Assembly (NCBI GenBank): GCA_027622905.1
Contig: JAQBVV010000018.1
Location: forward strand, 1 to 36,679
Direction: 5' to 3'
DNA from: Acidobacteriota bacterium
Lineage (GTDB): Bacteria; Acidobacteriota; Vicinamibacteria; Vicinamibacterales; UBA2999
Length of the DNA stretch: 36,679 bases
Positions 18,936-36,112 of this stretch are shown here, in pieces. A program made the position numbers and the translations under genes. Position 1 is the stretch's first letter; every line of letters begins with the position of its first letter. Under the pieces are notes generated by a model. It was not told where the DNA came from, did not search any database, and worked only from the letters and a program-made list of their open reading frames with translations.

Positions 18936-19078
18936 ATCAGGAGGCTTTTCGCTTGACCGCCTTCATCGCGGCACGAGCGGCGACGATCGTCTGCTCGACG
19001 TCCCGGTCCGTGTGCGCCGCCGAGAGGAACCACGCTTCAAATTGTGACGGCGGCGGATTGATGCCCCGCTTCAGCATC
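18936..19078 (-). repeat. intact copy of the hemL-end direct repeat
   Basis: This is the source copy of the sequence found again at 12942-13085. It spans the stop codon and last 47 codons of hemL, from about residue 386. Together the copies bracket 5.85 kb holding lpd, sucB and sucA. Confidence 0.9.
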
Positions 19079-20235
19079 CCTCCGAAAAACGTCGCGTAGG
19101 CGGTCGTATCCGCAGCGAGCGCCGACTCGTAGTCGCGCACGGGCTTTGAGGTGAAGAACGGCGTGAGCATCGATCCATGGGCGTTGACCTGCAGCGGGAC
19201 GTTCGCGGCGCGGGCCGCGTCGGCGAGCCCAGCCGCGAGCATCGCCCCTCGTCGTGCCAGGTTCCTGTATAACCCCGGCGTCAATCGTTTCACCGACCAG
19301 AGCCCGGCCGTCATCGCAAGCGGATTACCCGAGAGGGTGCCGGCCTGATAGACCGGTCCTGCTGGTGCGACCAGCTTCATGATGTCGGCGCGCCCGCCGT
19401 AGGCGCCGACGGGCAGCCCACCGCCGATGATCTTGCCAAGGCACGTGAGATCGGGTGTGACGCCAAGGATGGATTGCGCGCCGCCGGGCGACGCGCGGAA
19501 GCCCGAGATGACTTCGTCGAAGATGAGGAGAATGCCGTGGCGGGCGGTCAGCTCCCGCAGCCCCTGCAGAAAGCCGTCCGCCGGAGGCGTCACGCCCATG
19601 TTGCCGGCGATTGGCTCCACGATGACGGCGGCGATCGTCTTCTTGTGGGTCTTGCACAGGGCAGCGACGGACGGAAGGTCGTTGTAACGCGCCAGCAGGG
19701 TGTCGGCTGCGACCGCCTTCGACACGCCCGGACTCGTCGGTACTCCGAGTGTGGTGGCGCCCGAGCCGGCCTTCACGAGGAAGCCGTCGGCGTGACCGTG
19801 ATAGCAACCCGCGAACTTGACGATCTTGTCGCGCCGCGTGAAGGCGCGGGCGACACGCACCGCACTCATGGCGGCCTCGGTGCCTGAACTCACGAACCGC
19901 ACGCGCTCCATGGATGGCATGAGCGCGCGCACCCGCTCTCCCAGCTCGTGCTCAAGTGCGCACGGCGCGCCGAAGCTCGTGCCCCGCCGCGCGGCGACTG
20001 CGATGGCCGTGACCAGACCGCTCGGCGCGTGGCCGTGCAGGAGCGGGCCCCACGACATCACGTAGTCGATGAAGCGGTTCCCGTCGACATCCTCGATCCT
20101 CGCCCCGGCGGCGCGGCGGATGAACAGCGGCGAACCGCCGACGGCCTGAAAGGCACGGACGGGACTGTCGACGCCGCCAGGGAGAATGTGTTGGGCGCGC
20201 GCAAAGAGCTGATGGCTACGAATCGGTTTCTTCAT
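18937..20235 (-). CDS. hemL: glutamate-1-semialdehyde 2,1-aminomutase
   Basis: HemL is a PLP enzyme that converts glutamate-1-semialdehyde to 5-aminolevulinate, completing the C5 route begun by HemA. The 432-residue protein shows LPGGVDSPVRAF near the N-terminus, SSGTEAAMSAVRVAR at about 116-130, FDEVISGFR at about 239-247, and the PLP-binding Lys268 in CLGKIIGGGLPVG. It is the last haem gene of the run, separated from hemB by 156 bases that hold a palindromic repeat. I see no clear Shine-Dalgarno sequence before its ATG, so folding of the repeat could affect its translation. A decayed copy of its 3' end lies 6 kb downstream. Confidence 0.95.
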   Translation of the reverse strand: MKKPIRSHQLFARAQHILPGGVDSPVRAFQAVGGSPLFIRRAAGARIEDVDGNRFIDYVMSWGPLLHGHAPSGLVTAIAVAARRGTSFGAPCALEHELGERVRALMPSMERVRFVSSGTEAAMSAVRVARAFTRRDKIVKFAGCYHGHADGFLVKAGSGATTLGVPTSPGVSKAVAADTLLARYNDLPSVAALCKTHKKTIAAVIVEPIAGNMGVTPPADGFLQGLRELTARHGILLIFDEVISGFRASPGGAQSILGVTPDLTCLGKIIGGGLPVGAYGGRADIMKLVAPAGPVYQAGTLSGNPLAMTAGLWSVKRLTPGLYRNLARRGAMLAAGLADAARAANVPLQVNAHGSMLTPFFTSKPVRDYESALAADTTAYATFFGGMLKRGINPPPSQFEAWFLSAAHTDRDVEQTIVAARAAMKAVKRKAS

Positions 20236-20280: not shown

Positions 20281-20387
20281 TCTGGAGCGTTTTTCGATTC
20301 GGTGGAGACCGAAAAACGCGGGAAAGCGCTTTTCGAAAAGGCCTGGCCCCTGCCAGAAGCACTAGGCCGAAACGAAAAGCGCTGTGG
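20281..20387. repeat. palindrome-rich interspersed repeat, copy 1
   Basis: About 105 bases match 36007-36112 at over 80% identity with one 1-base gap; the first 65 bases differ at only about three positions. Written on the + strand, the left part can form GCGTTTTTCG/CGAAAAACGC (10 bp), or alternatively TTCGGT-GGAG-ACCGAA inside a GCGTTT/AAACGC stem. The right part is bounded by AGCGCTTTTCG/CGAAAAGCGCT (11 bp) and encloses GGCCT/AGGCC and CTGGC/GCCAG arms. It fills most of the hemB-hemL gap, antisense to copy 2 relative to transcription. It resembles REP/BIME or MITE-like elements in kind; I know no named family for it. Confidence 0.85.
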
Positions 20388-20391
20388 TGCG

Positions 20392-21396
20392 CTACGCACG
20401 TTGGTCGCGCAACGAACGCGCCGCGTCGCGGGCGTAGTAGGTAATGATCATGTCGGCGCCGGCACGGCGAATCGCCGTGAGTGCTTCCATCATCGCGCGC
20501 GGCTCGTCGATCCAGCCGTTGGCCGCCGCGGCCTTGAGCATCGAATACTCACCGCTCACGTGGTAGGCCGCTGTAGGTTGGCCGAATCGCATCTTCACCT
20601 TTGCGATGACGTCGAGGTAGGTCATCGCGGGCTTGACGATCACGATGTCGGCGCCTTCGGCCAGGTCGGCCTCGACCTCGCGAAGCGCCTCTTCGACGTT
20701 GGCTGGATCCATCTGATGGCTGCGCCGGTCGCCGAACTGGGGCGTGGAGTCGGCGGCGTCGCGGAACGGACCGTAGAAGGCCGAGCAGTACTTGGCGGCG
20801 TACGACATGATGCCGACCGCCTCGAACCCCTGCTCGTCGAGCCCCCGCCGGATCGCGGCGACCCGGCCGTCCATCATGTCTGACGGCGCGACGAAGTCGG
20901 CACCCGCAACCGCGTGCGACAGCGCCACCTGCACCAGATGGGCGACGGTCGCGTCGTTGACGATCTCCTCGCCGTCGAGGATGCCGCAGTGGCCGTGGTC
21001 GGTGTACTCGCACAGGCACACGTCGGTGATCACCACCAGGCCCGGCACGCTGCGCTTTAGTTCAATCGTGGCTGATTGGACGGCGGCGTTCGGATCCCAG
21101 GCGCTCGAACCGGTCGCATCCTTGTGATCCGGCAGTCCGAAGAGGAGCACGGCAGGGACGCCGTCTGCATGAGCGGCAGTGGCTTCCTTGACAGCCTCAT
21201 CCACCGAGAGCTGGAACACGCCAGGCATCGACGCGATAGCACGCCGCTGGCCACGACCCTCGCAGACGAACAACGGATAGATGAAGCAGTCAGGCGTCAG
21301 ATGCGTTTCGCGCACGAGCCGGCGGATCGCGTCCGTGCGCCGAAGCCGCCTGGGCCGTCGCGCCAGCGTGAGCCGGGAGTCGGTGGTTACAGGCAT
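20392..21396 (-). CDS. hemB: delta-aminolevulinic acid dehydratase (porphobilinogen synthase)
   Basis: HemB condenses two 5-aminolevulinate molecules to porphobilinogen. At 334 residues it has the family length. The N-terminal arm RPRRLRRTDAIRRLVRE is followed by the metal loop DVCLCEYTDHGHCG with Cys127, Cys129 and Cys137. That is the three-cysteine zinc site, so this is a zinc-type rather than a magnesium-type enzyme. The Schiff-base lysines are in AAKYCSAFYGPFRDA and IVKPAMTYLD. It starts 27 bases after cobA/hemD and ends 4 bases before the palindromic repeat that precedes hemL. Confidence 0.95.
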   Translation of the reverse strand: MPVTTDSRLTLARRPRRLRRTDAIRRLVRETHLTPDCFIYPLFVCEGRGQRRAIASMPGVFQLSVDEAVKEATAAHADGVPAVLLFGLPDHKDATGSSAWDPNAAVQSATIELKRSVPGLVVITDVCLCEYTDHGHCGILDGEEIVNDATVAHLVQVALSHAVAGADFVAPSDMMDGRVAAIRRGLDEQGFEAVGIMSYAAKYCSAFYGPFRDAADSTPQFGDRRSHQMDPANVEEALREVEADLAEGADIVIVKPAMTYLDVIAKVKMRFGQPTAAYHVSGEYSMLKAAAANGWIDEPRAMMEALTAIRRAGADMIITYYARDAARSLRDQRA

Positions 21397-34561: not shown

Positions 34562-35920
34562 ATGACCCTGACCGCCGTCGAGCGGCTCGCGGAGTTCGTG
34601 GCCGGTGCCGACGTTCCGGACGAAGGGCGCGCGGCGGCCTGCGGCGCGGTGCAGGACACCATCGGCGTCATGCTTGCCGGGTCGGCCGAGCCGGTGGCGT
34701 CGATCCTCCGCCGGACGGCGTTGGCGGAAGTCGCCGAGGGCCCGGCGAGTCTGTTCGGCACGCCGCATACGACGTCGGCGACGTGGGCGGCGTTGGTCAA
34801 CGGCACCGCTGCGCACGCGCTTGATTTCGACGACATGTGCTGGACGTCGATGGCGCATCCGAGCGCACCGCTGGTGGCGGCCGGGATGGCCGTTGCGGAG
34901 TCGATCGGTGCCAGCGGGCGTCGCGTGCTGGAAGGGTACGTCGTCGGATTCGAAATCGAGGCGGCGCTCGGCCGCGCGATGAATCCATCGCACTACGAGC
35001 AGGGCTGGCACTGCACCTCAACCATCGGGACGATCGGGGCGGCCGCCGCCGCGGCGCGCGTCATGGGACTCGGGCCGGAGGCCACGGGGCGCGCGCTCGC
35101 GATCGCGGCGTCGGAGGCATCGGGGCTGAAGGAGAACTTCGGCACGATGGTCAAGCCATTGCACGCGGGGCTGGCGGCCCGCAACGGCGTGCTGGCCGCG
35201 CTGCTCGCGCGCCACGGACTGACGGCGTCCCGGCGCGCGATCGATGGCCCGCAGGGGTTGCTGGTCGCGATGCTGGGCGGCGACGGAGATCTGGAGGCGC
35301 CACTGTCGGCGCTCGGGCACCGCTGGGAGATCGTTGACGAAGGCATTACCGTCAAGCTCTACCCGTCCTGCGCCGGGACGCATCCGACGATCGACACGCT
35401 CATCGATCTCCGCCGCGAGCTCGACCTCGGCCCCGACGACATCGCGGCCGTGGACGTCGGGGTGGATGCGGTGATGCCGACGGTGCTGATCCACGACCGG
35501 CCGACGTCCGGACTTGAAGCCAAGTTCAGCCTCCACTTCTGCGCAGCCGCCTCGCTGGCACATGGCCGCGTTGGCATGGACGTGTTCGAGGTGTCGGGCT
35601 TGCAGGATCCGGTGGTCCAGGGGCTCATCCCGCGAGTGACGATGCGCGTCGATGACGCTCTCATCGGGGCGTCCCCACCGTTGACCCATGCACGGATCAA
35701 GGTCACGTTGTCCGACGGCCGGACGCTGGAGCGCGCGGTGAGCGGGGCGCGAGGGTATCCCGACCGGCCGGCGTCCCGGGAGGAACGGGACGGGAAGTTT
35801 CTGGAGTGCGCCGCCCGGTGTGTGTCGCCCGCGGCAGCGGCGCGGGCGCTCGACTACCTCAAGACGCTCGATACGAGCCCCGATACCAAGTTGGGCGCAC
35901 TCCTGATACCGCCCGCGTGA
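34562..35920 (+). CDS. MmgE/PrpD family protein
   Basis: The 452-residue protein belongs to the family of 2-methylcitrate dehydratase (PrpD) and cis-aconitate decarboxylase. It has NGTAAHALDFDDMCW at 80-94 with Asp88 and Asp91, HPSAP (His99), GWHCTSTIGTIGA (His150), and GTMVKPLHAGLAARNG (Lys198). YPSCAGTHPTID lies at about 277-288. These match the active-site positions I recall from cis-aconitate decarboxylase, so an active enzyme is likely. No prpB or prpC genes are near, so a methylcitrate cycle is not supported. Position after a CoA-transferase and MaoC gene suggests a C5-C7 carboxylic acid substrate. The gap from MaoC is 61 bases. Confidence 0.88.
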   Translation: MTLTAVERLAEFVAGADVPDEGRAAACGAVQDTIGVMLAGSAEPVASILRRTALAEVAEGPASLFGTPHTTSATWAALVNGTAAHALDFDDMCWTSMAHPSAPLVAAGMAVAESIGASGRRVLEGYVVGFEIEAALGRAMNPSHYEQGWHCTSTIGTIGAAAAAARVMGLGPEATGRALAIAASEASGLKENFGTMVKPLHAGLAARNGVLAALLARHGLTASRRAIDGPQGLLVAMLGGDGDLEAPLSALGHRWEIVDEGITVKLYPSCAGTHPTIDTLIDLRRELDLGPDDIAAVDVGVDAVMPTVLIHDRPTSGLEAKFSLHFCAAASLAHGRVGMDVFEVSGLQDPVVQGLIPRVTMRVDDALIGASPPLTHARIKVTLSDGRTLERAVSGARGYPDRPASREERDGKFLECAARCVSPAAAARALDYLKTLDTSPDTKLGALLIPPA

Positions 35921-36006: not shown

Positions 36007-36112
36007 TCTAGAGCCTTTTTCGATTCGGTGGAGACCGAAAAACGCGGGAAGGCGCTTTTCGAAAAGGCCCGGTCCCTGCGAGAGCGCCAGACCGAAACGA
36101 AAAGCGCTCTGG
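36007..36112. repeat. palindrome-rich interspersed repeat, copy 2
   Basis: This is the second copy of the element at 20281-20387, in the same + strand direction. The TTCGGT-GGAG-ACCGAA hairpin is identical. The GCGCTTTTCG/CGAAAAGCGC stem is kept at 10 bp. Inside it the arms changed together: GGCCT/AGGCC of copy 1 corresponds to GGTC/GACC here. It lies between the MmgE/PrpD gene and the amidohydrolase gene, with 60 bases before the latter's start. Confidence 0.85.

Follow-up and report, generated by a model that had tools for sequence, protein, structure and literature searches.

The repeat at positions 20282 to 20387 of a contig from an Acidobacteriota genome is one copy of a bacterial mini-transposon. 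Elements of this kind are well known, but the family is new, and its mobile origin is well supported. Very probably, the copies form a lineage-specific MITE family, that is, a protein-less DNA transposon that depends on a DDE transposase which acts in trans and targets TA/CTAG. The copies are short (about 100 bp), non-coding, sharply bounded and numerous (125 unique copies). A first, sequence-only reading had proposed a non-autonomous mobile element, and this proposal is borne out by the high copy number, the sharp TA/CTAG ends, the unrelated flanks and one copy that splits a conserved protein.

Two copies of the element in the window

The window, i.e. the whole stretch of 36,679 nucleotides that was analyzed, contains two copies, both on the plus strand. 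Copy 1, which was delimited by its sequence and by the genome-wide copies and their boundaries, spans 20282..20387 when its decayed outer ends are included (CTGG ... TGG; the consensus has CTAG on both sides), and the element proper extends from 20285 to 20384. Copy 2 was delimited by its sequence and its alignment with copy 1 and spans 36008..36112. Its left CTAG is intact (36008-36011), the right end has decayed to TGG, and the element proper comprises 36011-36109. Repeats with more than 80% identity and one 1-base gap had been reported at these two places, and they are indeed present, together with remnants of the outer target. The alignment of the two copies comprises 106 columns with 11 differences, one of which is the 1-base gap, and the identity thus amounts to about 90%.

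Both copies are intergenic, as had also been claimed. Copy 1 is located in the gap between hemL (glutamate-1-semialdehyde 2,1-aminomutase; 18937..20235, minus strand; NCBIfam TIGR00713, E 5.7e-173) and hemB (porphobilinogen synthase; 20392..21396, minus strand; NCBIfam NF006762, E 2.3e-150). The latter is a flanking gene and not part of the element, and its stop codon is only about 5 bases away from copy 1. The nearest relatives of this hemB are 72–75% identical and occur in MAGs labelled Acidobacteria (one gp6), so that the host is probably Vicinamibacteria-like. Copy 2 is located between an upstream flanking gene of the MmgE/PrpD family (34562..35920, plus strand; Pfam PF03972, PF19305) and the next ORF. 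At the contig start, positions 1-65 of the window represent the end of an IS (TACCCCGACGCAGTGG) that is inserted at CTAG, and the same IS end recurs in element copies at two further loci (L126 and L233).

Folding of both strands placed hairpin 1 of copy 1 (GCGTTTTTCG ... CGAAAAACGC) at 20287..20319 of the plus strand, and folding together with the sequence placed hairpin 2 (AGCGCTTTTCG ... CGAAAAGCGCT) at 20325..20383 of the same strand. Hairpin 2 includes an internal CTAG (20362-20365), a site that is the point of IS insertion in other copies. Single-strand folding of copy 1 resulted in two adjacent hairpins for either strand, with z values of -3.6 and -5.6, and the fold of copy 2 is less clear-cut (z about -2.3). 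The claim of two hairpin modules per copy holds for both strands of copy 1 and, in the case of copy 2, for the minus strand only; its plus strand prefers a long-range fold. The pairing TTCGGT/ACCGAA, which had been described as hairpin 1, turned out to be only an alternative inner pairing; the preferred stem is GCGTTTTTCG/CGAAAAACGC.

A family of about 125 copies with sharp ends

The genome from which the window stems has a size of 3.43 Mb in 239 contigs and is 97% complete. A blastn-type search of this genome with copy 1 yielded at least 40 strong matches (E 1.5e-50 to 1e-36). The 28-base pattern of hairpin 1 was found at 122 genomic sites when up to 3 mismatches were allowed, versus 0 sites for the reversed control, and a profile search of the stretches around the copies retrieved 125 unique copies, of which 103 have nearly the full length. 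The possibility, raised beforehand, that only the two copies of the window exist is thus clearly false. Many copies are found at contig ends of the assembly.

The family consensus is CTAGAGCGTTTTTCGATTCGGTGGAGACCGAAAAACGCGGGAAAGCGCTTTTCGAAAAGGCCTGGCCCCTGCGAGAAGCCCTAGACCGAAACGAAAAGCGCTCTAG. The boundary has the form C-TA-[GAGCG...CGCTC]-TA-G, with sharp ends and unrelated flanks. Terminal inverted repeats of about 22 bp (CTAGAGCGTTTTTCGATTCGGT versus CTAGAGCGCTTTTCGTTTCGGT), which are identical at 20 of 22 consensus positions, enclose the two hairpins. The end motifs are highly conserved, GAGCG to 94–99% and CGCTC to 93–100% (its T to 84%). Further outwards, the TA is conserved to 82–86% and the C and G beyond it to 74–81%, and the next base is already at background level. 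An exact TA was present on the left side of 70 and on the right side of 72 of the 101 unique copies (82–86% per base). Left and right flanking dinucleotides are identical little more often than expected from composition, and target duplications longer than TA were not seen at the copies.

The element comprises about 98 bp between the two TAs, and most copies represent insertions of 102 bp. Shorter copies also exist, namely one-hairpin forms (about 43 bp) and copies with other internal deletions, and direct reading showed that the deletion points are situated in short direct repeats, e.g. CGAAAA. The median divergence from the consensus is 5.7%. In one case, two copies are only 1.17 kb apart (L046; G000:C106, positions 25731 and 26905) and have about 20 bases of upstream flank in common, which suggests that the element was taken along by a local duplication.

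Placement relative to genes and RNA structure

The copies track the distribution of CTAG. Outside of the elements, this tetranucleotide was observed 156 times, versus 1342 times expected from the base composition. Its density is about 12-fold higher in non-coding than in coding DNA, and the stop codon of a gene coincides with 48 of the 157 CTAGs outside of the elements. With respect to the copies, the stop codon of a gene lies inside the element's own terminal TAG in 32 of 102 cases, convergent gaps are enriched for copies (p 0.007), and 5 of 98 copies are located inside genes. All these numbers are approximate and carry sampling bias, because genes were predicted with a simple codon-usage caller that had been trained on the window, and because the stretches were chosen around the copies. 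The preference for gene ends can be explained by the fact that CTAG is rare and concentrated outside of genes and at TAG stop codons. Insertion at C-TAG regenerates the TAG, and therefore, the gene keeps its stop.

The enrichment between convergent genes and the stable folds of both strands of copy 1 would also be in agreement with a functional RNA or a terminator element, the hairpins of which are selected at gene ends. However, CTAG and TAG stop codons already account for the placement at gene ends, other genera of the family lack the element, and a search of the window with Rfam models did not yield any match at the gathering threshold. In addition, the sequence-only reading had taken the paired differences between the inner arms of the two window copies as a sign of selection on structure, and this view was not supported by the comparison of 98 copies: single stem changes usually break pairs, and the number of two-sided changes equals or slightly exceeds the shuffled expectation. 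The outer stem of hairpin 1 is the only helix with an excess of compensation, and this excess is small (4 versus 0.5 in shuffled sequences). The inner arms do differ, but they mark two subfamilies of 5 copies each. The folds thus result from copying of common sources rather than from maintenance at each site, and a function as RNA or terminator is very unlikely to explain the family.

Still less credence is given to REP/BIME-type elements, i.e. palindromes that owe their spread to a RAYT (Y1 tyrosine) transposase acting on single-stranded DNA, which had also been suggested: the copies are likewise palindromic, intergenic, high in copy number and built of paired hairpins, but PF01797 (Y1_Tnp) remained without a match in the 97%-complete genome, whereas the same search was positive in 5 of 14 control genomes, and a REP is defined as a palindrome of 20–40 bp with a GTAG or CGTC tag at one end (PMC3733652), in contrast to the unit of about 100 bp with terminal inverted repeats and CTAG on both sides.

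Copies inside genes

At one locus (L011), a copy splits the gene for a PHP phosphoesterase, between two blocks that align to the solved homologues 9etk, 3e0f, and 2yb1. After removal of 102 bp, the two partial matches became one continuous match and the scores increased for all four solved homologues, e.g. from 106.5 to 116.5 bits for 9etk, a comparison at the protein level only. At a second locus (L033), an acetaldehyde dehydrogenase has 13 additional residues behind its conserved domain, and these are encoded by a one-hairpin form.

One reading frame is open throughout the whole 102-bp insertion (34 codons), and therefore, the element can be carried within proteins, similar to the Rickettsia palindromic elements. 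Four of the five in-gene copies share one open frame (RAFFDSVETEKRGKALFEKAWPLREALDRNEKRS). In this common frame, the copies at L239, L124, L002, and L033 would add the peptide RAFFDSVETEKRG... to their recipients, which are a DnaJ-domain protein, an uncharacterised protein, a fused reading frame, and the aldehyde dehydrogenase.

Insertion sequences at the CTAG sites of the copies

Five types of ISs were found to be inserted at CTAG sites of the copies, i.e. members of the IS5, IS1634, and IS630 families as well as two ISs that are known only by their ends. The IS630-family element, which has its own ends (TAAACAG), occupies the left CTAG of one copy (contig C52), and the four other types are present at internal or terminal CTAGs. 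The ISs of this genome use CTAG, and TA is kept on both sides. One IS5-family element is complete (L130 2665-3950, G000:C190; transposase L130:2752-3834; ends GCAGGCYGCTGAAAAAG) and is located in the internal CTAG of a copy, again with TA on both sides.

The copies serve the resident ISs as extra CTAG sites. This observation, the rarity of CTAG elsewhere in the genome, and the similar reception of IS711 by Bru-RS1 of Brucella (PMC3163539) would all be compatible with a maintained landing pad, i.e. with copies that are kept for offering safe CTAG sites to resident ISs. However, a genome-wide IS630 search revealed that most IS630 junctions lie outside of the copies, and the numbers for the other ISs stem from sequence that was chosen around copies. 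An internal CTAG is still present in no more than 23 of 101 copies, and therefore, there is no sign of its being kept. Furthermore, being a target leaves the origin of the copies unexplained. A maintained landing pad thus has only a slight chance of being the correct explanation, and the MITE family is the preferred one.

A model for transposition and the search for the transposase

We propose that a cut-and-paste (DDE) transposase acting in trans would bind to the ends GAGCGYTTTTCG, the presumed binding sites, and would cut at TA. The element would enter CTAG with a duplication of TA, and each insertion would add 102 bp; the palindromic nature of the target is the basis for regarding TA as a target duplication. 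By analogy to the other ISs that use CTAG in this genome, the enzyme is expected to be a TA-duplicating DDE transposase of the IS630/Tc1-like or the IS5-like type. The four related arms might represent extra binding sites, and the one-hairpin forms of about 43 bp would have arisen when sequence between short direct repeats of the arms was deleted.

A transposase gene flanked by the ends of the element was not found among the DDE_3, DUF4096, and DDE_Tnp_1 loci of this genome, and the ends at the DDE_3 loci of four related genomes that contain similar elements do not match. Several candidates for the mobiliser were rejected. The IS630 beside the copy on contig C52 has the ends TAAACAG... and has simply used the left terminal CTAG of the copy as its target, a search of the genome for IS5-type DUF4096 yielded none, and none of the DDE_Tnp_1 loci carries the ends of the element. 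The transposase gene may have been lost, may be unassembled, or may belong to a family beyond those searched. Many described MITEs likewise are without a known partner (PMC2229807).

Distribution and possible relatives in other genomes

The exact 23-base core of the element was found neither in any of 84,980 further species genomes nor in any IMG/VR contig, and comparison of the element with 72,556 plasmids did not reveal a significant match. The 21-base end pattern has 220 matches in this genome and practically none in 42 others of the same family. In other families of the same order, short elements were found that share the end TA-GAGCGYTTTTC with the present family but have unrelated interiors. 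The elements of one genome (G146) contain the repeats TAGAGCGTTTTTCGTTTGCGTG, and another genome (G101) has two families beginning with TAGAGCGCTTTTCGCC and TAGAGCGCTTTTCATG. MITE-like families with this end are present at L289, L291, and L293 of the former and at L287, L292, L294, L302, and L308 of the latter. In G146, a unit of 1.1 kb that is bounded by similar ends (L297) was considered as an autonomous parent and was judged to be a degenerate IS inserted within a copy.

The occurrence of one end on different interiors could be understood because one type of transposase would impose it. It is conceivable, although we would not yet favor it over the opposite, that an order-wide superfamily of CTAG-targeting MITEs exists, with a common end, TA-GAGCGYTTTTC, and swapped interiors, which is moved by a not-yet-recognised transposase, and for which the choice of C-TAG stops makes most insertions harmless.

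Comparison with known systems and significance

By analogy, the family seems to work like RUP, the repeat unit of pneumococcus linked to IS630-Spn1, which has a length of 107 bp and about 110 copies (PMC2229807, PMC3049150). Size, copy number, terminal inverted repeats, the TA target, and the over-representation between convergent genes are alike (PMC2229807, PMC3049150). In contrast, RUP is AT-rich, has a different sequence, and has ends that resemble the resident IS630, whereas the resident IS630 ends studied here are TAAACAG and no partner was found.

The two-hairpin layout and the IS-receiving CTAG sites resemble CIR and Bru-RS1, judging from their descriptions. CIR, the Caulobacter/Brucella intergenic repeat, has about 110 bp and consists of two separate long stem-loops and a linker (PMC2229807); compared by description, its size, two-hairpin layout, TA at the termini, and intergenic location are similar. 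CIR is strictly intergenic (PMC2229807). However, it has been reported without the terminal inverted repeats that are present here. CIR has GANTC in one hairpin (PMC2229807), and hairpin 1 of most copies contains GATTC, a CcrM-type GANTC site (e.g. positions 20296-20300 of the window), which is replaced by GATTT in 17 of 98 copies. Bru-RS1 and Bru-RS2 of Brucella are palindromic repeats of 103–105 bp that receive IS711 at YTAR with a TA duplication (PMC3163539, PMC2266754); compared by description, their counterpart here is the insertion of ISs at CTAG, in a host of a different phylum. Correia/NEMIS and the Rickettsia palindromic elements are also MITE-like, have about 100–150 bp, inverted repeats and TA ends, and allow in-frame read-through in genes (PMC2229807), but their sequences and hosts are unrelated, and the fraction of in-gene copies given above is small.

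A literature search did not retrieve a paper dedicated to such elements in this phylum, and a literature text search with the end sequence of the element returned unrelated subjects only. The results add a well-delimited MITE family to the Acidobacteriota. They also offer a simple reason for the usual distribution of small repeats between genes and at 3′-ends: the target is scarce within genes and coincides in part with stop codons.
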